A stretch of 64,000 nt of DNA, taken from the NCBI RefSeq assembly GCF_013410775.1, contig NZ_JACCFH010000001.1, forward strand, positions 1,240,001-1,304,000, read 5' to 3'. The position numbers and the translations under genes are program-made. Below the pieces are notes generated by a model that was not told the DNA's origin, ran no database searches, and saw only the letters and a program-made list of their open reading frames with translations. This document shows, one piece after another, positions 9,210-40,379 of this stretch. The number at the start of each line of letters is the position of its first letter. The stretch's first letter is position 1. Origin of the DNA: Sphaerotilus montanus (lineage in GTDB: Bacteria; Pseudomonadota; Gammaproteobacteria; Burkholderiales; Burkholderiaceae_C).

Positions 9210-10120
9210 AACGAGATCTCCAGCCCGTCGAAGCTGACTTCGACACCCGCCGCCTCGACCGCCTGCCGCTCGGGCGAGGCTTCGTCGAGGATCGGGTTGG
9301 TGTTGTTGATGTGGATGAGCAGCTTGCGGGTCGTCGCCGGCAGGCGGCCGAGCCACTCCAGCATCCCGCCCGCGCCAGACTGCGGCAGGTGGCCGATGCT
9401 GCGGCCCGTCTTCTGCGAGAAACCGAGGCGGATCATCTCGTCGTCGGTCCAGAAGGTGCCGTCCACCATCACCACGTCGGCGGTGGACATCGCCTCCCAG
9501 ACAGCCGGGCTGATCTCGCCGAGGCCGGGGGCGTAGAACACGCGGCGGCCGGTGGCGACGTTCTCGAAGACGAGGCCGATGTTGTCGCCGGGCACGGGCG
9601 ACTCGCGGTGCGGCGAGTACGGCGCTGGCTTGCTGTCGAGCGGCAGCGCGGTGAGGCGCAGGTCGGCGACACCGGGGATGGTGAACGCGGTGCCGTCGAG
9701 GGGCAGCTCGTTCCACGCCACGCCGCAGTAGTGCGACAGCACGCGCAGGATCGGGTTGCCGAGGCTCAGGTCGTCGTGCGCCGGGCGCGTGGTCCACAGC
9801 GGCAGCGGCGTGCCGCGCTCGCGCAGCATGTACAGGCCGGTGCTGTGGTCGATCTGGCCGTCACACAGCAGCACGCCCGCGATGCCCGTGTCGCGCACGG
9901 CGCGGGCGGGCTGCAGCGCGGGGCTGCGCTGCAGCTGCGTCAGCATGTCAGGGGAAGCGTTGACCAGCAGCCAGTCGTCCGGGCCGCCGACGGCGACGGA
10001 CGACTGGGTGCGGGCGCGGTGGTTCGGGGATCCCGCCCGCACGGCGGTGCATTGCACGCAGTTGCAGTTCCACTGCGGAAATCCACCGCCAGCGGCCGAG
10101 CCGAGCACCCGCAGTTTCAT
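9206..10120 (-). CDS. pqqB: PqqB, metallo-beta-lactamase-fold PQQ biosynthesis protein
   Basis: A 304-residue protein that starts [19 protein letters not shown] and has the CNCVQC cysteine cluster typical of PqqB, then [11 protein letters not shown]-type and HINNTNPI segments of the metallo-beta-lactamase fold. PqqB is reported to act as a hydroxylase on the cross-linked Glu-Tyr intermediate. The gene starts 16 bases after pqqA and overlaps pqqC by 4 bases. Its ATG is clear, and the length is normal for the family. Confidence 0.94.
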
Positions 10121-10136
10121 GGTGTCGTCCCGGGGC

Positions 10137-10211
10137 TCAGCGGGCCGCGACGTACATCGTGATCTCGAAGCCGAAACGGAAGTCGCAGGCGGTGGGGGTT
10201 TGCCAGGTCAT
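10137..10211 (-). CDS. pqqA: PQQ precursor peptide
   Basis: A 24-residue open frame with a strong ribosome-binding site (GAAGGAG, 9 bases upstream of the ATG). It begins MTWQTPTACDFRFG and carries the invariant E-x3-Y pair, here Glu16 and Tyr20 (EITMY), whose side chains become PQQ. It is the first gene of pqqABCDE. The tail VAAR is a little longer than some orthologues but normal for proteobacteria. Confidence 0.95.
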   Translation of the reverse strand: MTWQTPTACDFRFGFEITMYVAAR

Positions 10212-10398
10212 CGTGAAACTCCTTCAGGGTGGGGGGGTTGGGAGTCTCCAGTGTCGTGACCTGCCTGCACGCCGTCGTCGCCACACCCATGATTCGCGCC
10301 TCATGATTTTCATGAAAGCAGCCGGCCTGGTCCCGACGGATACCGAAGATACAGCGCACCGCCTTGCACACGCGGTCAGGCCGCAGACAATCCGGGCC

Positions 10399-11796
10399 AT
10401 GTCCTCTCCAGTACCCGTTCTGCGCAGTCCGAGCCTGCGCCTGCAGATCCACCTGATGGTGGCCGCCTTGATGGGCCTGTTCGTCGTGGCCGTCATCGCG
10501 CTGCAGATCGACGCGACCCGCCGCAGCGTGCGCGAAGAGATCACCGCCGGCAACCGCGTCGCCGGCCAGTTGCTGCAGCGGGTGACCTGGATCTACGCCA
10601 ATGCGGGTCCGCAGGCCCTGGTGCAGTTCCTGGAGCAGCTCGGCCGGGTCCGCGCCAACGACATCCGTTTCGAGTCCGACGATGGCCGCGTGCTGTTCAC
10701 CTCGCCGCAGGCCACCTACAAGCAGGGCCGGAACGCCCCCGGCTGGTACAGCGCCCTGGTCTCGCCGGCACTGGAGCGCCAGGTCATCCAGATGCCGGGT
10801 GGCCGGCTGACGGTGGAGGCCGAGCCCTCGCGCGCCATCCTGGATGGCTGGGATGACTTTGTCGTGCTGGGCGGCACGGGCGCGGCGGTGCTGGTGCTGC
10901 TGAACCTGGCGGTGTTCTGGGGCGTCGGACGGGCGCTCAAGCCACTGCCGACCATCGTGGAAGGCCTGGCCCGGCTGCAGCAAGGCGATTACGCCGCACG
11001 CCTGCCCGCCCTGCCAGGGCGCGAGGCGGCGGTGATCGGGCAGGCCGTCAACCAGCTCGCCGAGGCGATCGAGGGCGAGATCGAGGCCCGCATGCGCGCC
11101 TTCGAAGCCGAGCGCACGCTGCTGGAAAGCCGCGAATTCGCGCGCCGGCTGGAGGTGCACACCGAATCCGAGCGGCGTGCCATCGCCCGCGAACTGCACG
11201 ACGAGTTCGCCCAGTCGGTCACGGCCATCCGCTCGCTGGCCCGCACGGTGCAGACCCGGCTCGGCGACCGCGACGCCACCAGCGCCCAGGCCACCGGCAT
11301 GATCGCCGACGAGGCGGCACGGCTCTACGAAGCCATGCATGGCCTGATCCCGCGGCTGGCCCCGCCCGCGCTGGACGATCTCGGACTGGCGGACGCGCTG
11401 ACCGAGCTGGTCGATGCCTCGCGCAGCCGCTACGGCGACATGACACTGGAGCTGAACCTGCACGGTCTGGAGCAGAGCCAGTCGCTGCCCGTCGAGCCGG
11501 CACGCGCCGCCTACCGCGTCGCGCAGGAGGCGCTGACCAACGCACTGCGCCACAGCGGCGGCACGCGGGTGCGGATCTGTGCAGAAGCCGACCCGACCTC
11601 GCTGCGGCTCACGGTCGAGGACGACGGCCAGGGCCTGCCCGACGACTGGGCACGCCGCGGCCACTACGGCCTGCGCGGCCTGCGCGAACGGGCCGCCACG
11701 CTGGGCGGACGCTTGAGCGTGCAACGGCGACCCGAAGGCGGCACCCGCGTGCAGACCTGGTTGCCGATGACCGGCCCCCAAGGAGAGACGACATGA
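10399..11796 (+). CDS. Sensor histidine kinase, NarX/UhpB type
   Basis: A 465-residue membrane sensor. A first transmembrane helix (about 16-37) and a second (about 155-176) enclose a periplasmic domain of about 118 residues. A HAMP-like linker, the HisKA_3 box RELHDEFAQSV with phosphoacceptor His267, and a HATPase with AQEALTNALRHSGG and VEDDGQGLP follow. The start at 10399 (MSSPVPVL) was preferred because the earlier in-frame region has no membrane or family features. It overlaps the response regulator by 4 bases (ATGA). It is divergent from pqqA across about 190 bases, so it may regulate PQQ-dependent metabolism; that link is inferred only from position. Confidence 0.9.
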   Translation: MSSPVPVLRSPSLRLQIHLMVAALMGLFVVAVIALQIDATRRSVREEITAGNRVAGQLLQRVTWIYANAGPQALVQFLEQLGRVRANDIRFESDDGRVLFTSPQATYKQGRNAPGWYSALVSPALERQVIQMPGGRLTVEAEPSRAILDGWDDFVVLGGTGAAVLVLLNLAVFWGVGRALKPLPTIVEGLARLQQGDYAARLPALPGREAAVIGQAVNQLAEAIEGEIEARMRAFEAERTLLESREFARRLEVHTESERRAIARELHDEFAQSVTAIRSLARTVQTRLGDRDATSAQATGMIADEAARLYEAMHGLIPRLAPPALDDLGLADALTELVDASRSRYGDMTLELNLHGLEQSQSLPVEPARAAYRVAQEALTNALRHSGGTRVRICAEADPTSLRLTVEDDGQGLPDDWARRGHYGLRGLRERAATLGGRLSVQRRPEGGTRVQTWLPMTGPQGETT

Positions 11797-12449: not shown

Positions 12450-12614
12450 TCAGTGCGAGGCAGCAGGTGCAGCCCCGCTGGCAGCACCCGGAGCCGGCTC
12501 GTGCGCATCGACGCCGTGCTTCTCGCCGCTCATGTCGATGTCACCACCGCTCTTCATCAGGATGAACATGGCGAGGGCGGCGAAGGCGATGAAGGCCAGA
12601 ACAATCTTCCACAT
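12450..12614 (-). CDS. Small single-pass membrane protein
   Basis: A 54-residue product that starts MWKIVLAFIAFAALAMFILM, a single transmembrane helix, followed by an acidic then Ala/Pro-rich tail (GGDIDMSGEKHGVDAHEP). An AAGGAG lies 10 bases upstream of the ATG at 12614, which supports real translation. It is convergent with the response regulator gene. The function is unknown; small proteins of this form occur in many betaproteobacteria. Confidence 0.65.
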   Translation of the reverse strand: MWKIVLAFIAFAALAMFILMKSGGDIDMSGEKHGVDAHEPAPGAASGAAPAASH

Positions 12615-12643
12615 GGTTGAAACTCCTTGGGGGTTGAAGCGAG

Positions 12644-12667
12644 GGGTGGGTGGGTGGGTGGGTGGGT
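12644..12667 (+). repeat. Six tandem GGGT units, G-quadruplex-capable
   Basis: Six perfect copies of GGGT lie in the gap between the small membrane protein and the transporter terminator. Four or more GGG runs with single-base loops can form a very stable parallel G-quadruplex on the plus strand. On the minus strand it lies just upstream of the small gene's ribosome-binding site, so it may sit near its promoter. The copy number may vary between strains. Confidence 0.8.
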
Positions 12668-12698
12668 AAGAACAGGGTCAGGTCGCCCCGGCGAACGA

Positions 12699-12726
12699 AC
12701 AAGGCGCCCCTCGCGGGGCGCCTTGT
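12699..12726 (-). terminator. Hairpin terminator after the MHS transporter gene
   Basis: A perfect 12-bp stem (ACAAGGCGCCCC pairing with its complement) around a 4-base loop TCGC, 34 bases past the transporter stop. On the minus strand it is followed by TCGTTCG, so the T-tract is weak, but stem strength and position fit a factor-independent terminator. Confidence 0.7.
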
Positions 12727-12759
12727 CACATCAGCGGAACGTCAGCGGATGGCAGGCGT

Positions 12760-14451
12760 TCAGTCACCGGCGTAGATGTCGGTGTCCTTGGTTTCCTTCA
12801 CGAACAGCATGCCGATCACGAAGGTGATGGCCGCGATCGTGATGGGGTACCACAGGCCGTAGTACATGTCGCCGTTCTGGGCCACCATCGCGAAGGCGAT
12901 CGTGGGCATCAGGCCACCGAACCAGCCGTTGCCGATGTGATACGGCAGCGACATCGAGGTGTAGCGGATGCGGGTCGGGAACATCTCCACCAGCATCGCG
13001 GCGATCGGGCCGTAGACCATGGTCACGTAGATCACGAGGACCGACAGGATCATGATGATCTTGACCTTGTCGATCTTGGCCGGGTCCGCCTTGGCCGGAT
13101 AGCCCGCTTCCTTCAGCGCAGCCGCCACGTCCTTCTTGAACTGGGCGATGGCCTTGCCGCTGACCTCGTCGAACTTGTGACCACCAGCTAGCAGCACGCC
13201 GGTCGGGGGCACGATTTCCTTCTCGCCGATCTTGATGGTCGTCGCCGTGCCCGTCGGCACGGCCTCGTTCACGTAGCTGGCCGAGTTCTGGGCCAGTGCG
13301 CGCTTGGCAATGTCGCAGGGGTTGGTGAAGTCGACTTCACGCGCCACCGGGCTGCCCTGGAACGAGCAGGTCGCCGGATCGGCCTTCACGAAGATCTGGG
13401 CCGAGGCCTGCGCCGCGGCCAGATCGGGGTTGGCTGCGGCGGTCAGCGCCTTGAACAGCGGGAAGAACGTCAGCATGGCGAGCAGCAGGCCGGCCATGAT
13501 GATCGGCTTGCGGCCGATCTTGTCCGACAGCGTGCCGAAGACCACGAAGAACGGCGTGCCGATGATCAGCGAGGCCGCGACCAGGATGTTGGCGGTGGGG
13601 CCGTCGACCTTGAGCACGCTGGTCAGGAAGAACAGCGCGTAGAACTGGCCCGTGTACCAGACCACCGCCTGGCCAGCGACCAGACCGAACAGCGCCAGCA
13701 GCACGATCTTCAGGTTCTTCCACTGGCCGAAGGACTCGGACAGCGGTGCCTTGGAGGTCTTGCCCTCTTCCTTCATCTTCTTGAAGGCGGGCGATTCGTT
13801 CATCGACAGGCGGATCCAGACGCTGATGGCCAGCAGCAGGATCGACACGATGAACGGCACGCGCCAGCCCCAGTCGGCGAAGGCCTCTTCACCGATGAGC
13901 GAGCGGGTGCCCAGGATCACCATCAGCGACAGGAACAGGCCCAGCGTCGCGGTGGTCTGGATCCACGCGGTGTAGGCACCGCGGCGGCCGTGCGGGGCGT
14001 GTTCGGCCACGTACGTTGCAGCACCGCCGTACTCGCCACCGAGCGCCAGGCCCTGCAGCATGCGCAGCGAGATCAGGATGACCGGCGCAGCGACACCGAT
14101 GGACGCGTAGTTGGGCAGCACGCCGACGATGAAGGTGGCCAGACCCATGATCAGGATGGTGACCAGGAAGGTGTACTTCCGGCCGATCATGTCGCCGAGG
14201 CGCCCGAACACCAGCGCGCCGAAGGGACGCACGATGAAGCCTGCGGCAAACGCCAGCAGGGCAAAGATGAACGCGGCGGACGGATCCAGACCGCTGAAGA
14301 ACTGCTTGGCGATGATCGCGGCAAGCGATCCGTACAGGTAGAAGTCGTACCACTCGAAAACAGTGCCGAGCGACGAGGCGAAGATGACCTTCCTCTCCTC
14401 TGCCGTCATCGGCGAATCGGTGGCCCGAGCGTTCGCGGGAATGCTGGACAT
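12760..14451 (-). CDS. MFS transporter, metabolite:H+ symporter (MHS) type
   Basis: A 563-residue inner-membrane transporter with 12 predicted helices. Signatures include SSLGTVFEWYDFYLYGSLA, RPFGALVFGRLGDMIGRKYT and the second half-repeat LSDKIGRKPIIMAGL, typical of the ProP/KgtP/ShiA group. Substrates in this group are organic acids or osmolytes; I cannot assign one. A hydrophilic insertion of about 110 residues between helices 8 and 9 (with the two-cysteine part TCSFQG...NPCDIAK) is longer than in ProP. The start at 14451 (MSSIPANAR) has GAGGAG upstream. Confidence 0.88.
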   Translation of the reverse strand: MSSIPANARATDSPMTAEERKVIFASSLGTVFEWYDFYLYGSLAAIIAKQFFSGLDPSAAFIFALLAFAAGFIVRPFGALVFGRLGDMIGRKYTFLVTILIMGLATFIVGVLPNYASIGVAAPVILISLRMLQGLALGGEYGGAATYVAEHAPHGRRGAYTAWIQTTATLGLFLSLMVILGTRSLIGEEAFADWGWRVPFIVSILLLAISVWIRLSMNESPAFKKMKEEGKTSKAPLSESFGQWKNLKIVLLALFGLVAGQAVVWYTGQFYALFFLTSVLKVDGPTANILVAASLIIGTPFFVVFGTLSDKIGRKPIIMAGLLLAMLTFFPLFKALTAAANPDLAAAQASAQIFVKADPATCSFQGSPVAREVDFTNPCDIAKRALAQNSASYVNEAVPTGTATTIKIGEKEIVPPTGVLLAGGHKFDEVSGKAIAQFKKDVAAALKEAGYPAKADPAKIDKVKIIMILSVLVIYVTMVYGPIAAMLVEMFPTRIRYTSMSLPYHIGNGWFGGLMPTIAFAMVAQNGDMYYGLWYPITIAAITFVIGMLFVKETKDTDIYAGD

Positions 14452-32630: not shown

Positions 32631-32962
32631 GACGTGCTCCAGTTGAGACCGCTCCGGGATGGGATCGGTCAGGACGTTTCACGGTCCGAGGCGCCATCGT
32701 AGGGAGGGATCAAGCGGTGCAAGTCCGTGCAGTCTCTGCGATTCAAACTGACGACAGCTGAGAAAATCTCTTGTGAATCAATGACTTGTATGCCGAACCT
32801 CTGCATCCGCCCGCGCCATGAGGTGGCTCACTGGATGAGCCACAGCTTAAGGTGAAGGTGGCTCCGGCCGCCCAGCCGGCTGCCGGGCAAGCGATCGCGC
32901 TGGTCCGGCAATTGCAAAGCCCTCCATTCCTTGTTCCTTCCTACCCCCAGCCGAGGTGCACA
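32631..32962. other. Intergenic region upstream of zwf, no gene seen
   Basis: About 330 bases between the divergent fasciclin and zwf genes. It is locally less GC-rich around 32730-32800. It should hold both promoters, but I cannot define either with confidence. An in-frame ATG at 32852 precedes the zwf start but codes no family sequence. Confidence 0.5.
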
Positions 32963-33771
32963 GTGGCCAAGATTCCTCCCGGTGTCGGTCCGCGGTTTCC
33001 GCAGGTCGTCGTCCTGTTCGGTGCGACCGGTGACCTGGCGAAGCGCAAGCTGCTGCCGGGCCTGTTCCATCTCTCCAGCGCGGGCTTCATCCCCGGCTGC
33101 CGGATCATCGGCGTGTCGCTCGACGACCTCGACACCGACGGTTTCCGCCAGACCGCCCGCAGCGCACTCGGCGAGTTCTTCAGCCGCAAGATCCCCGACG
33201 CGGACTGGGAAGCGTTCTCCGCCAGCCTGGAGTACGTGCCGCTGTCGGCCGGCGCGGACGCGCTGAAAGCCGCGGTGGACCGCGCCGAGCAGAGCCTGGG
33301 CAGCGAATGCCGCCGCCTGCACTACCTGAGCGTGCCGCCGAACGCGGCGCTGTCGGCGGTGCGCCTGCTGGGGGCGGCGGGGCTGGTCGAGCGCTCGCGC
33401 ATCGTGATGGAGAAGCCCTTCGGCACCGACCTGGCCAGCGCAGTGACCCTGAACGCCAAGCTGCACGAGGTCTTCGCGGAGGAACAGATCTACCGCATCG
33501 ACCACTTCCTCGGCAAGGAGCCGGCGCAGAACATCCTGGCGTTCCGCTTCGCCAACGGCCTGTTCGAGCCGATCTGGAACCGCAACTTCATCGACCACGT
33601 CCAGATCGACGTGCCCGAGACGCTCGGCCTGGGCAAGCGCAGCGGCTTCTACGAGCAGACCGGCGCCTACCGCGACATGGTGGTGACGCACCTGTTCCAG
33701 ATCCTGGCTTTCATGGCGATGGAGCCGCCGACTTCGCTGGAGCCGGTGCCGATCAGCGAGGATAAGAACAA
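32963..33771 (+). pseudogene. zwf: zwf 5' part, glucose-6-phosphate dehydrogenase, interrupted
   Basis: Codons 1-269 plus two bases of the next codon. The protein has [20 protein letters not shown] (NADP-binding, residues 20-30) and the active-site [19 protein letters not shown] (178 onward). It breaks after ISEDKN, where the family continues KVFRSM. The reading frame then runs into inserted DNA and meets a stop at 33967, which would give a 334-residue truncated product. The start is a GTG at 32963 with GAGG 7 bases upstream. Joining base 33771 to base 39725 restores one 487-codon frame of normal length, so the gene is split by insertion, not decayed. Confidence 0.93.
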
Positions 33772-33790
33772 TGGTTTTACACCCGTTGGC
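33770..33790 (+). repeat. Left attachment arm (attL) of the element
   Basis: Core AA followed by TGGTTTTACACCCGTTGG. Counted from the core, GGTTT (positions 4-8) and GTTGG (positions 16-20) recur at exactly the same spacing in the reverse complement of the right end. Together they form an imperfect inverted repeat, as expected for recombinase half-sites. The zwf target AAGAAC-AA-GGTCTT is itself a near palindrome about the same core. Confidence 0.75.
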
Positions 33791-34025
33791 AGGCTGGAAC
33801 TGGGCAAACTTCTACATCAGCCACCTGAACGGAAGATGAACCAGCAATGTGGTATTCGCGTGCGTGAGAGTGCTGGCGCTGGTTGCGAACCATCAAGGCG
33901 TAGCACTGCGAGCACACCCTTTGGGGCACTTCTAGAAACCGGCCCTGCAGCCCTGAACCTGGTCTGAGCCTGCACAAATCCAGCTCAGACGAGCAGTGGA
34001 TGACGGCTGCCAGCCGCTGTCCCCG

Positions 34026-34054
34026 CCGTCGCGGTACCCCGCGACGGGGTTTTT
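34026..34054 (+). terminator. Plus-strand terminator inside the IS left end
   Basis: Stem CCGTCGCGG / CCGCGACGG with loop TACC, followed by GG and five T residues. It lies between the IS left end and the transposase stop. It would stop transcription entering from the truncated zwf, a common way for insertion sequences to shield their transposase from opposing transcription. Confidence 0.75.
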
Positions 34055-34058
34055 CCCC

Positions 34059-35138
34059 TCACGCGGGCTGTGCGGACGCACCTGCGCTCTTGACCAGCCA
34101 CACCAGCCTGCGCGCGTTGTAGGCCGCGCACTGCAGCGTGATCGCCAGCGCATTGCGCGCCAGCGTCATCGCCCGCACGCACTTGCCGCCCTGCTGGCTC
34201 AGCGCCGCAAAGACGTGCTCGACCCGTGCCCGCGTGCGGTTGATCGTCTTGTTGCGCTGCTTGAGCCGAACCTTGGCCGTCTGCCCTGGCTTGGCGCGAC
34301 GTGCGATGCCGTCGGCCAGTCCGTGCTGCTGCAGCGTCTGACGGTTGGCCGCGCTGTCGTAGCCCCGGTCGGCCAGCAGCCGCTTGCGCGTGTTCGCCAC
34401 CTGCAGCACGTCGGGCAGTTGCTGTCCGTCGTCCGCGTTGGCCGCCGTGATCTTCATCTGGCGGATCAGCTTGTAGCGTGCGTCCACGTTGCCGTGCAGC
34501 TTGTAGCCGTAGTACGCCTTGCCGTGCTTTTGCGTCCAGCGCGCGTCCCGGTCGGTGTGCGCCAGGCGCTTCTTGCTCCAGCCCTCGGGCGCCTCCCCCT
34601 TGTTCAGCGCCTCGCGCTCCCGGGCGTTGGCCTGCGTGATCGGCGCCTGCACGATGCTGGCGTCCACGATCTGCCCGCCCCTCGGGATGAAGCCGTGCCG
34701 CTGCAACTGCTGGCTCAACGCCTCGAAAATCGCCCGGCCTCCCAGCCCGCCTTCGGCCAGCCGCTGCCGGAAGTTCCACAGCGTGCGTGCGTCCGGAATG
34801 TTCAGCGCGCCGTCCAGCCGGCAGAACCGCTGGAAGCTCATCCTGTCGAGCACCTGGTGCTCGCACTGCTCGTCCGACAGGTTGTACAGCCCTTGCAGGA
34901 ACACCATGCGCACCAGCGCCTCGGTCGGGTACGGCGGGCGTCCGCCCTTGCTGCGGTCAGCGCGAGGGCAAGCTTTGTCCACCGCCGAGGCCATCGCTGC
35001 GAAGTCGATCAGTTCGTCCATCGCCGCCAGCGTCTGCACGTAGCCCTCCAGCTTGGCCTTGCGCTGCTGCACCACGAACAGGTCGTCCGCGGCCTCCTCA
35101 GGAAAGAAGCTCGATGGCTTGGTGCGGGGTGTGATCAT
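34059..35138 (-). CDS. IS5-family transposase
   Basis: A 359-residue DDE transposase. The likely catalytic triad is Asp159 (GGQIVDASIV), Asp257 (LLADRGYDS) and Glu307 (RARVEHVFA), with the Y-(2)-R-(3)-E-(6)-K type C-terminal signature present in modified form. The N-terminal domain has RPPYPTEALVRMVFLQGLYNLSDEQ, typical of IS5/IS1182-like enzymes. The frame is intact, so the copy may still be active. The product cuts and rejoins the inverted repeats of this IS. Confidence 0.93.
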   Translation of the reverse strand: MITPRTKPSSFFPEEAADDLFVVQQRKAKLEGYVQTLAAMDELIDFAAMASAVDKACPRADRSKGGRPPYPTEALVRMVFLQGLYNLSDEQCEHQVLDRMSFQRFCRLDGALNIPDARTLWNFRQRLAEGGLGGRAIFEALSQQLQRHGFIPRGGQIVDASIVQAPITQANAREREALNKGEAPEGWSKKRLAHTDRDARWTQKHGKAYYGYKLHGNVDARYKLIRQMKITAANADDGQQLPDVLQVANTRKRLLADRGYDSAANRQTLQQHGLADGIARRAKPGQTAKVRLKQRNKTINRTRARVEHVFAALSQQGGKCVRAMTLARNALAITLQCAAYNARRLVWLVKSAGASAQPA

Positions 35139-35208
35139 GGGGCGGCATCTTGCCGCAGCGCGCGGCTCAGGTGGCGGTCAGGGTCGGTTTCTAGAAGTGC
35201 CCTTTGAC

Positions 35209-35386
35209 CTGATGTCAGCATTCATGACACCAGATTGACCACTCAAACCCCCCCTGTCGTCGGCTAGAACCGCCTACAAGGCCCGCGAACCTGCCCGGAC
35301 GCACCAGCGCACTGCCGAGGGGTTTTAGAGGCTTGTAGAGGCTTTTTGAAGGCAGAACAGACCTGATGTCGGGAAAGCCGACACCA
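35209..35386 (+). repeat. Two related hairpins (CTGATGTC units)
   Basis: Unit 1 pairs CTGATGTCA (35209-35217) with TGACACCAG (35225-35233). Unit 2 pairs TGATGTCGG (35364-35372) with CCGACACCA (35378-35386). Both start ACCTGATGTC, both have 8 of 9 pairs, and both carry the same A-C mismatch. The shared mismatch suggests that the units derive from one protein-binding or structural motif and did not arise by chance. Confidence 0.6.
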
Positions 35387-35457
35387 TCGGAAACCAGCGC
35401 CAGCAGAGTAGGAGATGCCGCCGTTTTTGGCTGTATCTCCTACCTGGACAAGCCATT

Positions 35458-35546
35458 CCAAAAAGAAAGCCCCAACAATACACAGATTTTCCTGGAAGCC
35501 GATTTCAGCCCATTTTCGACGCATCCAAAAAGAAAGCCCCAACAAT
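35458..35546 (+). repeat. 22-bp direct repeat pair
   Basis: The same 22 bases (CCAAAAAGAAAGCCCCAAC and three more) occur at 35458-35479 and 35525-35546, with starts 67 bases apart. The sequence around them differs. They could be binding sites or the trace of a small duplication. Confidence 0.85.
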
Positions 35547-35650
35547 GGCACCTAAGCCTATTTTAGGCACCAGCCACTTTCCTCAAGCATCTGCAATTCT
35601 CCAGCCCCTGCGGGGCAGAGCCTTAGCTCGGGGGAGTGTGCGTTCTTTTT

Positions 35651-36877
35651 TCAATACTCAGTTCTCGACAACTTGATGGAAAATTCTCCATTGCTCTTTG
35701 CTGCTACCCATTGAACCAGTTCTTCCACTGAGACATCTACATCTGTAGCGACACAATCATGGATTTTCAAACAACGACCACCAGCTTGATGGACGCATTC
35801 AACGAGCATTTCACGAACTACCTTTTCCAACAATTCGCAAGTCCAATACAACTTTGTAAAGCCCGCAGCGTCAGCGAAGGGCGATGTCTGTTTGAAGTTT
35901 GAAGGAACCGCGCATTGTGGCAAATACAACTTCAATGAGACGATGTTTTTCATGAAACCAACAATGAAGGGCATCGACCGCAGTTCCTCCCATTTGGCGA
36001 GGTCATAGTCCAGAGCCTCGAAGATGGTGTATTTCGACAAGACATCAACATTCCGGGTTGCATTCAACTTCGCACCAAACAACAACGACGACAAGATTAC
36101 TTTCACCTGACCGACAGAGACATCAAGTTTTTCCGCAATAGCGAGACGAAGTTCGTCGGGCTGACTAACCAAGTATTCCAGATACATCAGTTGAACATTC
36201 GGGCGGATAACTTTCATCGCTTGTAGTGCCAAAGTCGGAAAGCAACTTTTGATGTCAAACTGAAACTTGTATCCGTGCTTGGCGAGCAACTTGTTTCTAA
36301 CAAACTTCGATTCAGAGACAATCTCGTGAAACTCTCTTGAAGACATCTTCTGTTTCGGCTTCGAATAAGCAAATTCACCTGATTGAAGTTCCGACGAATA
36401 CTTGCTTTCAAAGTATTCGATGCGTGCTTTCAAGTAGTATTCAAGGCATTCTTCCGCAGACCAATTCAACTTGCGAATGAACGGATTGAACTCGGACAAC
36501 TCCAACTTGTAGCGATTGTTCTTCTTACCTTTGACATACTTGCCAACACGAAGCAGCAAACAATCTTGAAGTTCTCTGGTTGATTTACCCTCACCGAATA
36601 CCAACTCACTGCGAAGTTCCTTTGAACTAATTTCACGCACAACTTTCGAACTTGCACCTTTGAATTTCCCGAACAGGTATCCCACAACACACTTGATGCG
36701 ATGCTCAATTCTCGGGTCAGACAACTGGTGCGAATTCAACCAAGCAACAGAACGAATTCCTTCATTTCTAAAAATGTCTGTATTGTTGGGTCTTTCTTTT
36801 GAACCAACATCAATCCGACAATCATCATTTACAACTTCTTCAATTTCACTTACAATAGCGCATTCACTTAAATACAT
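35651..36877 (-). CDS. Minimal family A polymerase-like protein
   Basis: A 408-residue protein that I cannot name as a known gene. Three motifs of the Pol I / T7 RNA polymerase superfamily can be read in order. Motif A is FDIKSCFPT with Asp208. Motif B is VKVILSSLLFGAK with Lys259 and Phe-Gly at +8/+9, the same spacing as Lys758 to Tyr766-Gly in E. coli Pol I. Motif C is KIHDCV with His373-Asp374. The A-B and B-C distances (51 and 115 residues) are close to Pol I (53 and 124). The arginine four residues before the motif B lysine in Pol I is absent (Val255). The first 200 residues are unrecognised and there is no exonuclease domain. An AGGAG lies 6 bases before the ATG at 36877. Being a DNA or RNA polymerase is inferred, not shown. 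Confidence 0.6.
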   Translation of the reverse strand: MYLSECAIVSEIEEVVNDDCRIDVGSKERPNNTDIFRNEGIRSVAWLNSHQLSDPRIEHRIKCVVGYLFGKFKGASSKVVREISSKELRSELVFGEGKSTRELQDCLLLRVGKYVKGKKNNRYKLELSEFNPFIRKLNWSAEECLEYYLKARIEYFESKYSSELQSGEFAYSKPKQKMSSREFHEIVSESKFVRNKLLAKHGYKFQFDIKSCFPTLALQAMKVIRPNVQLMYLEYLVSQPDELRLAIAEKLDVSVGQVKVILSSLLFGAKLNATRNVDVLSKYTIFEALDYDLAKWEELRSMPFIVGFMKNIVSLKLYLPQCAVPSNFKQTSPFADAAGFTKLYWTCELLEKVVREMLVECVHQAGGRCLKIHDCVATDVDVSVEELVQWVAAKSNGEFSIKLSRTEY

Positions 36878-36929
36878 CACGAACTCCTAAAAGTTTCAGG
36901 TCAGCGAACAACCTGGAACAGACTAATAG

Positions 36930-36972
36930 AAGCCTTTGCGAACGATTACATTCAAATCGTTCGCAAAGGCTT
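36930..36972 (+). terminator. Strong hairpin between the two small-operon genes
   Basis: A 16-17-bp perfect stem (AGCCTTTGCGAACGAT and its complement) with a 9-base loop, followed on the plus strand by TTTTTGCTTTTT. It would terminate plus-strand transcription coming from the left. On the minus strand it lies between the 65-residue gene and the polymerase-like gene, where the following bases are only moderately T-rich. There it could weaken or protect the mRNA between the two genes. Confidence 0.7.
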
Positions 36973-36980
36973 TTTGCTTT

Positions 36981-37178
36981 TTACTTCTTAGACATTGCCA
37001 AGATTTTGGCTTTCTTTTCAAGTCGAGTGCTAATTCCTTTGAGCCACAACTTGTCAGACTTCGATAGCAGCAATTCATAGGCAACATCATCAACCAATTC
37101 CTTCATCTCGCGAACTTTCAGGCGCAGACTTAGGATGAACGCATCTTCAACAACAACATTCTTTTGAACACTACTCAT
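36981..37178 (-). CDS. Small basic protein of the element, unknown function
   Basis: A 65-residue protein that starts MSSVQKNVVVEDAF, is mainly helical in appearance, and ends with a lysine-rich tail (RLEKKAKILAMSKK). The ATG at 37178 has GAGG 8 bases upstream, and a good promoter match lies 38 bases further up. The polymerase-like gene starts about 100 bases downstream on the same strand, so the two probably form one operon. A DNA-binding accessory, regulator or recombination directionality factor are possible roles; none is supported by sequence family. Confidence 0.6.
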   Translation of the reverse strand: MSSVQKNVVVEDAFILSLRLKVREMKELVDDVAYELLLSKSDKLWLKGISTRLEKKAKILAMSKK

Positions 37179-37215
37179 ACCAGACCTCTTTCGATAAAAA
37201 TACAACTTCACTGGT

Positions 37216-37244
37216 ATTTAAGCACTTTGTATCAAAACTATCAA
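37216..37244 (-). promoter_or_regulatory. Putative sigma-70 promoter for the small operon
   Basis: On the minus strand TTGATA (5 of 6 to the -35 consensus) and TTAAAT (4 of 6 to the -10) are separated by 17 bases. A start about 7 bases on would give a leader of some 30 bases before the 65-residue gene. Confidence 0.5.
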
Positions 37245-37314
37245 GGTATGAACCGATTTCAATTAAACCGCCATACTCGGATGAATTCAAATTCAGGAAT
37301 TACCAACTCGCTAC

Positions 37315-37472
37315 ATCAGTGGCGGCGCTACGGGCTATAAAAGTATCCATTTTCAACTTCGCTCATTCATTCAGCGCGGCCATACAAGTCCGCTACTTTA
37401 AGCAAAAATCCTTATGAATCAACAACTTACGCGAACTTCTTTCAACTTCGCTCTATCAGTCGCGGCGCTACG
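37315..37472 (+). repeat. Paired direct repeats in the structured region
   Basis: ATCAGTGGCGGCGCTACG (37315-37332) recurs as ATCAGTCGCGGCGCTACG (37455-37472), 17 of 18 identical. TTTCAACTTCGCTC occurs at 37351-37364 and 37440-37453, identical. The order differs between the copies, so this is not one simple duplication. The GC-rich core in AT-rich surroundings stands out. Confidence 0.8.
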
Positions 37473-37587
37473 CACCAACTAATTCAAACTTCGCAGCAAT
37501 AGAACTTCATTCCGGCTAATCAACTCGCCTCGCATCTTTCCGGGAACTTTCCGTTGATACATTTTTCAATCGTTGTGAATAGTTCGG

Positions 37588-37600
37588 ACAATGGTTTTAC
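37588..37600 (+). repeat. Internal 13-bp copy of the left element junction
   Basis: ACAATGGTTTTAC is identical to bases 33768-33780, which span the zwf-element boundary and include the AA core. It is followed directly by ACTAAACTTTTAG (37599-37611), which recurs at 38050-38062 near the recombinase stop. The site therefore looks like a junction of two sequences found at the element's functional ends. Confidence 0.7.
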
Positions 37601-37632
37601 TAAACTTTTAGTAGAAGTTTCAAGAGCCATGA

Positions 37633-37656
37633 ATGCTCCCGACTTTTCGGGAGCAT
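37633..37656 (+). repeat. Perfect hairpin ATGCTCCCGA
   Basis: A 10-bp stem (ATGCTCCCGA and complement) closed by the loop CTTT. No T-tract follows on either strand, so a structural RNA or protein-binding role is likelier than termination. Confidence 0.7.
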
Positions 37657-37756
37657 GGTCAGCACTACCGGGAACACGATTTACCACTTTCGGATCTGGC
37701 GAACTCACCCACTGCTGATAATTTCATTTCCGCCAATCAGTAGTGATAACGCACAA

Positions 37757-37793
37757 CTTCAGTAGCGATATGTCAAAGTTATCGCTACTGAAG
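37757..37793 (+). repeat. Perfect 13-bp inverted repeat
   Basis: CTTCAGTAGCGAT and its complement are separated by 11 bases. One arm overlaps the second of two CAGTAGYGATA repeats (37738 and 37759). Together they look like operator or iteron-type sites. Confidence 0.7.
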
Positions 37794-38008
37794 TCATTTA
37801 TCACCACCAATCGACCAACAGCAGCACATCCAGCGCCAGCAGCACACCCCCCATTCAGGGGTATGCCAAAATACCCGGTTCGGGACCGTTCCAGCCAACA
37901 GATTTTTAATTCTGACGGGTGGCGGTAGGTGGCGGGGGGTCTTCAAAACCAGCACTTCAAGTTTGAATAGATGTCCAACAAACAAACTTCCAAATTTTAT
38001 TTTTGAAC

Positions 38009-38047
38009 AAAAAAATGGGGGGTCTGCCCAGATTTGGGGACACCCCC
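38009..38047 (-). terminator. Terminator downstream of the recombinase gene
   Basis: On the minus strand a GGGGGTGTCCCC arm pairs with GGGCAGACCCCCC and is followed by A and seven T residues. It lies 23 bases past the recombinase stop, a typical factor-independent terminator. Confidence 0.75.
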
Positions 38048-38069
38048 TCACTAAACTTTTAGAACTCGA

Positions 38070-39641
38070 TTACTTCATCAACTTATGAACAACAATCCGA
38101 CAAGGCGAACTTGGAATCTTAATCAACTCACTCCAGCCATCCGCAACAACTTCAACACATCGCAAATCTTCTTCCTGATTACGAACAACAAGTTCTTTAA
38201 CCACAAGTTTCAGGTATTGAGCCAATCTCATGCGGATGGACAACAAATCTTCATCTTTGCCTTTATTCAACATTTCGACGAACTTCCAATAGCCTGACGA
38301 AGCATTCACCCAGTGATTAGGTTTTTCAATCATTGATGAGGCATTTACAAGTTCTGCTTCCAACTGGGCAACTTCAAGTTCTATCTGCGACAACCTAGAA
38401 CCGACAACTTTGGGGACAACTTTTCCGCTTGTAAAGTAGGCCATCAAACTGGTTTCCTCGACCTGAAGTTTGCCAATCCGAAACTTTAACAACTTGATTT
38501 CATCCGCTGGTTCTTTGGTTTCTGTTCCAACTACAATTTTATTCAAGTCAAACTTGCTGAACAGGAAGTCCAGAACTCCATCTTCAAAGTCTGAATACCG
38601 AACTTTGGGCAATTTACAAGTCGAACTTTTAGTCAGCCTACAACCAAGCCGATTGTATTTCGGGTCCAAGTCAGTGAAGATTCTAAACTGCGAACCGCAA
38701 TCACCGCAGCGAAGCAGCCCAGAGAACAAGTTGAAGCACTTCACGGACTTTGGTTTGCGACCACCACCAGAACCCGCCTTCCCGCTCTTGGAATCGAGAA
38801 TAACGAGAACTTGCTCGAAAACCGCATAGTCAATCACAACTGGATAGTAGTCCGCCAGAACTCCACCAATCCGGTCATAGTGCTCCAGTATTCCGCAGAC
38901 ATTCGGTGATTTGATTAAATGCGACACCATCCAGTCAGTCCAAGGTCTTCCATTGAACCGCAACAGACCTTCACTATTCAAGATTTTGGCAATCCGCGTT
39001 GAACCATACCCATCAAGGTATAAGTCGAAGACCCGTCGAACAATCATCACCTGTTCCGCAACTTCAATGAACGAACCATCTTTGGCAACTTCTAACCAGA
39101 ATGGTGTTCGACTACCAACATGGAAAGTTTCACCAGCAGCAATCTTCAACTTTGCTTCGGCTCTTTTCGCAGCATAGGCCGCCAAAATCCGTTCTTGCGT
39201 CCGTTGCGATGCGGTGAATGAAATTCTTATTTCTTGTGAGATTTGCTCAATTGACGATAGACCACTATTGATTGTCTCCGCAGACCACAGTTTCAACAAG
39301 TTCGCGACATAGATGGAACCACCAGCATTGATGATTTCTAAAAACAGCGAGACACCTTCAACCACTGGAAGTCGCGTCAGTCGGTCAAGGTATTCGACCA
39401 CCAGCACAGATCCCCGAGGAACAGCGCCAGCATGAAGCGCATCAATCCACTTTCGCAGTGCTGAACCATCGGCCACATTTGCGCCCGTATAGGCACTCAA
39501 ACCCGCATCAAGCAGGGCATCCCCTTCCGTCCAGTTGTGGAGCAAACAAGCCTGCTCAAAAGCCCTCTCTTGTCGTCGCTCACTGTCGCCAGCAGCCTGT
39601 TTTTTAGTGCTGAAGCGGATGTAGGAATACGCGGTTGTCAT
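38070..39641 (-). CDS. Large serine recombinase
   Basis: A 523-residue site-specific recombinase. The N-terminal catalytic domain has YSYIRFSTKKQ with nucleophile Ser11 and YLDRLTRLP with Arg87 and Arg90. A recombinase domain follows (PFWLEVAKDGSF to about residue 280, including GYGSTRIAKILNSEGL). A zinc ribbon (LRCGDCGSQFRI with later Cys residues) and a C-terminal coiled-coil/leucine-rich region come after. This is the layout of phage and transposon integrases that join attP and attB through a 2-base overlap. The ATG at 39641 has AAGGTGA upstream; a TTG at 39647 is the alternative. It should insert and excise the surrounding element. Confidence 0.93.
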   Translation of the reverse strand: MTTAYSYIRFSTKKQAAGDSERRQERAFEQACLLHNWTEGDALLDAGLSAYTGANVADGSALRKWIDALHAGAVPRGSVLVVEYLDRLTRLPVVEGVSLFLEIINAGGSIYVANLLKLWSAETINSGLSSIEQISQEIRISFTASQRTQERILAAYAAKRAEAKLKIAAGETFHVGSRTPFWLEVAKDGSFIEVAEQVMIVRRVFDLYLDGYGSTRIAKILNSEGLLRFNGRPWTDWMVSHLIKSPNVCGILEHYDRIGGVLADYYPVVIDYAVFEQVLVILDSKSGKAGSGGGRKPKSVKCFNLFSGLLRCGDCGSQFRIFTDLDPKYNRLGCRLTKSSTCKLPKVRYSDFEDGVLDFLFSKFDLNKIVVGTETKEPADEIKLLKFRIGKLQVEETSLMAYFTSGKVVPKVVGSRLSQIELEVAQLEAELVNASSMIEKPNHWVNASSGYWKFVEMLNKGKDEDLLSIRMRLAQYLKLVVKELVVRNQEEDLRCVEVVADGWSELIKIPSSPCRIVVHKLMK

Positions 39642-39703
39642 CGTCAATCACCTTCTGCCAGGAACAAGTAAATCGACCAAATTTCAGTCGAATGAAGTTC
39701 CAT

Positions 39704-39724
39704 ACCAACCACCGAGAAACCTAA
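39704..39724 (-). repeat. Right attachment arm (attR) of the element
   Basis: Ends ACCGAGAAACCT followed by the core AA. Its reverse complement has GGTTT and GTTGG at the same distances from the core as the left arm. In a circular form the two arms would meet around a single AA as an imperfect palindrome, the expected attP. Confidence 0.75.
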
Positions 39725-40379
39725 GGTCTTCCGCAGCATGCTGCCGATCCAGCCGGCCGACGTGGTGCGCGGGCAGTACAGCGGCTACCGCAACGAGGAA
39801 GGCGTCGACCCCGACTCGGACACCGAGACCTTCATCGCGCTGAAATGCCACATCGACAACTGGCGCTGGGCGGGCGTGCCCTTCTACCTGCGCACCGGCA
39901 AGCGGCTGGCGGAGGGGCAGCGCATCATCTCGATCGCCTTCCGCGAGCCGCCGAAGAGCATGTTCCCGCCGGGCTCGGGCGTGGGCTCGCAGGGGCCGGA
40001 CCACCTGACCTTCGACCTCGCCGATGCGTCGAAGATGTCGCTGTCCTTCTACGGCAAGCGGCCCGGGCCGGGGATGCGGCTGGACAAGCTGAGCCTGCAG
40101 TTCGCGATGACCGACACGGGGCTGGCGGGCGAGGTGCTGGAGGCCTACGAGCGGCTGATCCTGGACGCGATGCGCGGCGACCGCACGCTGTTCACCACCG
40201 CCGAGGGCATCGAGCGGCTGTGGGAGGTGTCGCAGCCGCTGCTGGAGGCGCCGCCGCCGGTGCGCCTGTACGAGCAGGGTTCGTGGGGACCGAAGCCGGT
40301 GCACCAGCTCATCGCGCCGCATGCGTGGCGGCTGCCGTTCGAGCGGGCGTGGCGCAAGCAGAACGTGCAGGGCGGCTGA
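39723..40379 (+). pseudogene. zwf: zwf 3' part, glucose-6-phosphate dehydrogenase
   Basis: Continues exactly where the 5' part stops: KVFRSMLPIQPADVVRGQYSGYR, then RTGKRLAEGQRIISI and YGKRPGPGMRLDKLSLQF, to the normal C-terminus AWRKQNVQGG. It lacks its own start signal; an internal ATG at 39738 has no good site. The encoded part is the C-terminal beta-sheet and dimer domain and cannot work alone. There is no decay inside it, which points to recent insertion or occasional precise excision. Confidence 0.93.

Follow-up and report, generated by a model that had tools for sequence, protein, structure and literature searches.

A candidate family A-like polymerase, highly diverged, encoded together with a large serine recombinase in an integrative element of Sphaerotilus montanus

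Several mobile elements are known to combine a recombinase with a polymerase related to the Pol I superfamily. In the available part of Iyer et al. 2008 (PMC2579912), TV-Pol genes are reported to be linked to recombinases of the gamma-delta resolvase family in mobile elements, including ccrC of SCCmec. It was proposed there that these elements are replicative and that TV-Pol carries out priming as well as synthesis. For CcPol-MP of SCCmec, experimental evidence of both priming and polymerization is reported (Bebel et al. 2020, PMC7581432, as excerpted). From Bacillota, 17 PolA-SSB pairs have been modelled, most of them accompanied by large serine recombinases; according to the text at hand, a helicase is closely associated in 17/17 cases and an OB-fold SSB in 16/17 (Rice 2023, PMC10061031). 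The pairing of a polymerase with a serine recombinase is thus not new, being known from the TV-Pol/resolvase elements (2008) and from CcPol of SCCmec (2020, 2023). A preliminary description of the locus reported here, made from the letters of the sequence, had named no described system with this pair of genes; the papers just cited, as far as available, do not support the view that the pair is undescribed.

The window, which is the whole analyzed stretch of 64,000 nucleotides, contains an integrative element that carries such a pair. The features are listed with their window coordinates.

32852-33771, + strand: 5' part of the interrupted zwf gene (G6PDH), based on the ORF list and on intact homologues (L024-L028); start codon not fixed.
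33770-33771 and 39723-39724: 2-bp core AA flanking the element, based on comparison with the unbroken sites of genus mates.
33772-39722, no strand assigned: integrative element inserted in zwf, 5.95 kb including a later IS insertion.
33924-35202, - strand: IS5-family insertion inside the element; transposase at 34059-35138 (NCBIfam transpos_IS5_4, 241 bits).
35651-36880, - strand: polymerase-like gene, 409 aa with GTG as start and 408 aa with ATG (the next codon, 36877).
35756-35761, - strand: motif C, H373-D374 (LKIHDCV).
36074-36103, - strand: motif B, K259 to F267-G268 (KVILSSLLFG).
36254-36256, - strand: motif A, D208 (FDIKSCFPTL).
36981-37211, - strand: 76-aa ORF between the recombinase and the polymerase-like gene.
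37520-37708, - strand: 62-aa ORF, a possible small gene, from the ORF list.
38070-39647, - strand: large serine recombinase, 525 aa; PF00239, PF07508 and PF13408 above cut-off.
39723-40379, + strand: 3' part of the interrupted zwf gene, 90-96% protein identity to five genus mates.

The recombinase element, as announced in the preliminary description, is real. It splits zwf, while the uninterrupted sequence GAACAAGGTC is present in all five zwf loci fetched from genus mates (at the threshold used, 7 of the 13 genomes searched gave no match). In the window, the left side of the insertion reads GAACAA and the right side AAGGTC. The bounds 33772-39722 and the AA core follow from the unbroken GAACAAGGTC of the mates together with these sequences. 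A 2-bp core is typical of serine integrases, and the insertion in zwf, with its clean AA core, fits their manner. The recombinase has all three expected domains (resolvase, recombinase and zinc ribbon), and NCBIfam additionally reports weak matches below cut-off to CcrA, XisF, CcrC and CcrB. The polymerase-like gene has a GC content of 0.43 and the recombinase gene one of 0.46, compared to 0.70 for the host. Elsewhere in the genome, DNA similarity and a reading of the frame start point to another open frame (495 aa) that is G6PDH-like.

Leaving aside the IS and the frames that enter from the host on either side, the element has only two ORFs of at least 150 aa, the polymerase-like gene and the recombinase, and therefore there is no room for a helicase. 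The 76-aa ORF has zero matches to Pfam, PHROG, NCBIfam and PADLOC. The IS5-family insertion has terminal inverted repeats (33924-33947 and 35179-35202) and is flanked by CACCCTTTG and TTTGACCTG, with TTTG as the likely target duplication. No match was obtained when the element was searched by blastn against the plasmid and phage collections, and the flanks of related recombinases (n=45) contain no homologue of the polymerase-like protein. An Rfam scan gave sub-threshold matches only.

The noncoding parts of the element and its base composition show several peculiarities. AACTT/AAGTT is enriched in 35651-39700 (63 copies in 4.05 kb, both strands, where uniform composition would give about 8); per strand, there are 7.8 copies per kb in the element versus 0.22 in one host stretch. 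This excess, for which the expectation takes uniform composition only, could mark an earlier host of the element. Downstream of the polymerase-like gene, a 23-nt direct repeat (35457-35479 and 35524-35546) has the core AAAGAAAGCCCCAACAAT; a 30-nt inverted copy (90%) lies within the gene itself, in its 5' part (36771-36800). When 35203-35650 was used to search the own genome, nothing beyond these three places was returned at E 0.01. At 36928-36974, the + strand has a perfect 18-bp hairpin with a T-run behind it, which resembles a terminator and faces transcription from zwf, antisense to the element genes; terminator-like sites are not in excess over shuffles in the scan (6 versus 6.7). A 15-bp perfect palindrome (ACTTCAGTAGCGATA, 37756-37794) between the recombinase and the 62-aa ORF is perhaps an operator. 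The noncoding region 37303-37475 contains degenerate repeats of the form CAACTTCGCTC..ATCAGT.GCGGCGCTACG (families D6 and D11), which are possible origin or binding sites.

The 409-codon open frame, with its 43% GC inside a 70% GC host, is most likely a real coding sequence. As initially described, it contains D208, K259 with F267-G268 at +8/+9 (the K259 codon being 36103-36101) and H373-D374 within 408 residues. Searches of the family libraries revealed neither an exonuclease or other nuclease nor any other domain, and position K-4 is V255, so that there is no RxxxK of the Pol I type; the absence of both an exonuclease and the Pol I finger arginine had been stated beforehand. The form VK-x7-FG-x-K is like that of motif B in T7 RNA polymerase, and K-x7-[FY]G also fits K758...Y766-G767 of Pol I. 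A loose version of the triad occurs by chance in 1/461 real unrelated ORF segments and in 8/5000 shuffles of the query. If the shorter Pol I spacing of motif B is also allowed, these counts are 2/461 and 33/5000, and they drop to 0/461 and 0/5000 when a hydrophobic residue is demanded before D and HD. By itself, the triad is weak evidence, suggestive rather than decisive. A stricter gapped DNA pattern for the three motifs had 30 matches in the GTDB collection and five in IMG/VR. Only five of the 30 GTDB stretches are open-framed; four of these were read as thiolase (2), UspA and a glycosyltransferase, and one could not be named; the frames of all five IMG/VR stretches are closed, as are those of the two viral matches to a second DNA pattern.

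In direct searches, the window protein behaves as an orphan. Nothing credible was found in Pfam, PHROGs, NCBIfam, PADLOC and PDB sequences; it has no match to PF00476 (DNA polymerase I) at the curated cut-off and is missed by the Pol I and gp5 profiles. The DNA_pol_A family search of its own genome has a single match, the host Pol I. Among 100 relatives and 398 genomes of the phylum (overlapping sets), it is found only in its own genome. Among 399 genomes of the order, a set that overlaps with these, it finds itself and one chance match (E 0.04), which lies in a protein read as a dipeptide-binding type. None was found in IMG/VR and GTDB by peptide scans, a method that requires 8-mers to match almost exactly, and the plasmid collection yielded nothing usable. 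When profiles of known families were applied to the window protein among decoys, it ranked 10th for RT and 19th for RNAP. The reading as a reverse transcriptase (RVT_1) was dropped, as only motif A aligns, with 0.9 bits, and not [YF]xDD, besides the rank of 10 among decoys.

Relatives became accessible via the phage collection. With the window protein as tblastn query, five weak matches were obtained (E 0.07-0.7). That to a Vibrio phage is the weakest (E 0.7) and has the widest coverage (38% of the query); it was picked because it covers most of the query among the five and includes both motifs A and B. The other matches, with E-values better than this one, are a phage membrane protein (H2) and microvirus pilot proteins (H3-H5). 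The alignment to the Vibrio phage protein, a hypothetical protein of 617 aa, spans residues 129-282 and places both the motif A Asp and K-x7-FG in register; EHDG is found further on, beyond the aligned stretch. When used as a query, the phage protein retrieves Vibrio phage GR7B and 30 further records of Erwinia/Dickeya phages, and five records from the plasmid collection (Polaromonas, Synechocystis, Calothrix and two from Proteus). The Polaromonas protein, in turn, retrieves the pW9NP1 protein (32.6% identity) and, weakly (E 0.5), a protein from an E. coli plasmid in which the family motifs can be read. IMG/VR contributes 11 clade loci, several of them probably from the same phages. The clade is thus distributed over Vibrio phages, Erwinia/Dickeya jumbo phages and plasmids from Polaromonas, cyanobacteria and E. 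coli.

A PHROGs scan assigns five of nine clade members to phrog_30690 or phrog_34692, both of unknown function. In the record annotations, in PHROGs and in the open-access literature searched, no polymerase assignment of the clade was found. The available text on the Polaromonas plasmids (PMC6015842), in which pW9NP1 and pH8NP1 are classed as RepA_C replicons, makes no mention of a polymerase of this kind. For the jumbo phages, no such assignment is given in the accessible parts of PMC11348598, PMC7412058 and PMC6143709, where polymerase homologues are mentioned among Y3-type phages with the protein not named.

Two of the plasmid records have noteworthy gene neighborhoods. The 13.7-kb Calothrix plasmid6 (L379) codes for a resolvase domain-containing protein (539-aa frame) and a clade polymerase-like protein (9934-11553, 12455-13693), a pairing similar to that in the window; the window recombinase has no phmmer match to the plasmid6 resolvase. 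In a chromosome-sized Proteus record that is filed as a plasmid, a frame-broken clade member (L376:9112-9639) is found beside a gene read as mutS.

Because the Vibrio sequences had been chosen for their similarity to the window protein, a fair test of membership has to do without them. The Polaromonas proteins came to light with the Vibrio phage protein as query and not with the window protein. When a profile is built from this pair, the window protein comes 1st of 662 (E 1.1e-4, the next best sequence having 0.15). It is also 1st with a profile of five plasmid sequences (E 1.9e-4), with each Polaromonas protein alone (E 0.0017 and 0.0026) and, at an E-value of only 0.049, with all 13 non-Vibrio sequences. 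Other member sets perform less well: it is 2nd behind a shuffle with Polaromonas plus E. coli (E 0.031), 40th with Erwinia-type sequences only, and 142nd with the E. coli protein alone. When single cores are used, it ranks 1st with both Vibrio sequences and with the pH8NP1 sequence, 25th with Synechocystis, 33rd with Calothrix and 149th with one Erwinia-type sequence, and is not reported with two others of that type. Taken as a whole, these rankings make it likely, not proven, that the window protein belongs to the clade.

Conservation was analyzed in an alignment of 16 rows (A7), consisting of the window protein and 15 relatives. The Calothrix row (cut by the record start) and the Synechocystis row (frame-shifted) lack the C-terminus. 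The alignment leaves out L372-L374 (same or similar phages among L384-L394), L375 (a partial frame), the broken Proteus copy and the near-duplicates L389, L390 and L392. D208 and K259 are invariant in 16/16 rows, and HD is found in each of the 14 rows extending that far, so that this check does not refute the polymerase reading. The aromatic residue at K+8 is kept in 15/16 rows, Gly at K+9 in 7/16, and Q176 is common to 15/16. The family motifs (GR..G.FQ, D-x-x-SSQ, K-x7-[FY], G-x-E and HDG, with D-x-x-x-C in place of D-x-x-SSQ in Polaromonas, E. coli and the window) read like those of Pol I (TGRLSS..NLQN, DYSQIE, K...YG, QGTAAD and HDE, in part also taken from the printed hhalign alignments).

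The window protein itself shares only 15-24% identity in the alignments and deviates at several positions. The hairpin Arg, an R in 15/15 relatives, is absent; in its column the window protein has Phe in A7 and Glu (SGEF) in alignment A3. The G-x-E motif before motif C, with its Gly in 13/13 relatives having a C-terminus, is also absent. At K-4, the position of the RxxxK Arg, R is found in 3/16 rows and Lys in 5/16, with Val in the window protein. At K+4, Tyr is found in 12/16 rows and Ser in the window protein. The residue at D+5 is Gln in 12 rows, His in two, Asn in one and Phe in one, the last being the window protein in an ungapped reading. In Pol I, D+5 is the steric-gate Glu, and in the printed hhalign alignments the family Gln or His falls on this position. 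Given the residues at D+5 and K+4, the choice of nucleotide may differ from that of Pol I. With the hairpin and finger arginines missing, activity is uncertain; it may be weak, altered or gone, though the metal-binding aspartates are kept.

Profile comparisons relate the clade to family A. A profile of the 15 relatives, built without the window protein, ranks that protein 1st of 651 (E 5.5e-4), and ranks 2-25 are taken by 20 Pol I and four gp5 sequences (E 0.007-1.3); none of the 72 RNAPs, 26 RTs and 461 decoys offered is among them. For an 8-sequence core without the window protein, hhalign gives P-values of 6e-5 for Pol I, 5e-4 for gp5, 0.12 for RNAP, 0.34 for RT and 0.47 for recombinases. 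The corresponding values for the 15-sequence core are 2.8e-4, 1.4e-3, 0.37, 0.81 and 0.46. With full-length sets of six and four sequences, Pol I becomes weaker (0.034 and 0.2) and gp5 stays at 0.004. In the printed alignments of the 6- and 15-sequence sets, GR..Q, the motif A Asp and motif B are in register with Pol I.

Structure prediction gave no usable fold for the window protein (pLDDT 35.4). An Erwinia-type phage relative was modelled by AlphaFold2 from an alignment of 10 sequences (10 of the 11 IMG/VR loci, the eleventh duplicating one), with a pLDDT of 76.6 and ten-residue blocks of 64-96 over residues 221-530. Foldseek reports 89 PDB matches to this model at E <=0.001. Judged by their titles, the best 50 of these are family A DNA polymerases without exception (best E 8.7e-6, probability 1.00); they include apPol and SFM4-3, which we take to be family A polymerases. 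The PDB matches listed have query-normalized TM-scores of 0.29-0.38 and an rmsd of 6-26, so that the resemblance concerns the polymerase core and does not extend to a superposition of the whole. In the viral fold library, uncharacterized phage proteins are on top, followed by matches that include the replication proteins of Zamilon virus and Qinghai Lake virophage and phage DNA polymerases. The fold of the relative, like the conserved D, K and HD, does not refute but speaks for the family A-like polymerase that had been proposed at the outset, which is still the best reading.

We think the odds are slightly in favor of the window protein being a strongly diverged representative of a family A (Pol I superfamily) clade that has attracted little attention. 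It would work like TV-Pol and CcPol, as a stand-alone, exonuclease-free and element-borne polymerase. The recombinase would excise the element as a circle and reintegrate it later. On the excised or single-stranded form, the polymerase may make primers or a stretch of DNA, which would allow the element to keep pace with the host or to amplify. Replication of the circular form, primer synthesis and the priming of repair had been put forward as possible roles in the preliminary description. Since there is no room for a helicase, the element would have to borrow the helicase and replicase of the host. A more far-reaching proposal, which we consider unlikely, is that family A includes a separate, unrecognized and helicase-free clade whose members occur in large phages, on small plasmids and in serine-recombinase elements and have Gln, His, Asn or Phe at D+5 instead of the steric-gate Glu. 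The window form, which lacks the hairpin and finger arginines as well, would then be a minimal primase-polymerase and prime the excised element for replication by the host. The main rival to the preferred reading arises from the loss of the two arginines and of G-x-E: the protein could be a decayed or repurposed clade polymerase that no longer performs synthesis. Its present role would be to bind DNA or a partner protein, or it would be a mere relic in an element broken up by the IS. The lost hairpin Arg and G-x-E are conserved in the relatives, and 12/15 of these have Tyr at K+4 and Gln at D+5, where the window protein has Ser and Phe. The IS5-like insertion sits in the element, and for five RRM-only Pol proteins activity was thought unlikely (Rice 2023, PMC10061031, in the part available). 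We hold decay to be less likely than the preferred reading; all 409 codons are open, and both catalytic Asp residues, the Lys and the aromatic-Gly pair are retained.

It is improbable, in our judgment, that the triad arose by chance in an unrelated protein and that the phage and plasmid similarity is fortuitous. The first rank among 662 was obtained with Polaromonas sequences whose selection did not depend on any similarity to the window protein, and HD lies outside the first aligned stretch, yet is present in the relative. These points stand against the low identities, the initial match at E 0.7, the five open frames among 30 strict pattern matches in genomes, and the several member sets that fail to pick out the window protein. 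As to the product, the preliminary description had left both DNA and RNA synthesis open. The form on which this was based, K-x7-FG-x-K, is present and similar to T7 RNA polymerase motif B; in addition, a single T7-type RNA polymerase turns up when the model of the relative is compared with the viral folds (E 1.8e-3). A T7-type transcriptase of the element is, however, very improbable: a profile of 72 RNAPs has no motif-registered match, hhalign of the family versus RNAP gives P-values of 0.083-0.51, and no RNAP is in the top 25 of the family-profile ranking, which places Pol I and T7 gp5 above the RNAPs. Judged from these sequence comparisons, DNA rather than RNA synthesis is favored for the polymerase-like protein.

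If the preferred reading is true, proteins annotated as hypothetical (or, for pH8NP1, as Clp protease N-terminal), including those in phrog_30690 and phrog_34692, would be polymerases. The PolA-like replication module of mobile elements would extend past the cataloged TV-Pol and could lack a linked helicase. One could then also test which parts of the Pol I active site can be dispensed with, and by what means a small integrative element may copy itself. The surprise is limited because this kind of system is already known.

Compared with the TV-Pols, as far as the available part of the 2008 description goes (PMC2579912), the window protein is alike in being a stand-alone family A-like polymerase of 400-600 aa, free of a nuclease and encoded in a mobile element with a recombinase. 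It shares the two catalytic palm aspartates (D208 in 16/16 rows, D374 in 14/14 with a C-terminus). Part of the TV-Pol family has a linked recombinase, and the window element has the large serine recombinase at 38070-39647. Unlike the TV-Pols, the window protein lacks the "absolutely conserved" Arg of the beta-hairpin and the Arg of RxxxK, and the D5-like helicase that accompanies part of the TV-Pol family is absent from the element. A helical thumb module is a further TV-Pol trait; the model of the window protein (pLDDT 35.4) is of too low confidence to show one. Two ORFs found in two genomes in addition to their Pol I (L366 and L367, 655- and 1005-aa frames) are perhaps TV-Pols, a label taken from the DNA_pol_A family search only; the Pol I profile recognizes them (E 4e-18 and 5e-8), and the clade profile recognizes neither. 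Because of the two missing features, and because the clade profile misses these ORFs, we file the window protein as a divergent family A relative and not as a TV-Pol. With CcPol-MP and the PolA-SSB proteins, as described in the accessible text of PMC7581432 and PMC10061031, it has in common that a truncated family A polymerase is part of an element mobilized by one or more large serine recombinases. Those elements are from Bacillota and have a helicase and an SSB, whereas the window element has no helicase and no recognized SSB.

Closest by ranking, together with the Vibrio phage proteins, are the Polaromonas proteins from pW9NP1 (WP_181377809.1, 538 aa, hypothetical) and pH8NP1 (WP_181374945.1, 501 aa, annotated as Clp protease N-terminal domain-containing). 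They share motif A as D-[IL]-x-N-C, K-x7-YGA and HD, and both plasmids carry a serine recombinase gene. In contrast to the window protein, they have kept the hairpin Arg and QG, and their plasmids have a RepA of their own. The hypothetical proteins of Vibrio phages GR11A and GR7B and of the Erwinia/Dickeya jumbo phages (Alexandravirus type, phrog_30690) fall into the same clade by alignment, and the Erwinia-type member models as a family A polymerase. The phage proteins differ in being longer (525-618 aa), with an extended N-terminus, and in the eight Erwinia-type rows the residue that follows the motif B aromatic is T or S, not Gly. What is new here is the clade, the missing helicase and the loss of two conserved arginines.
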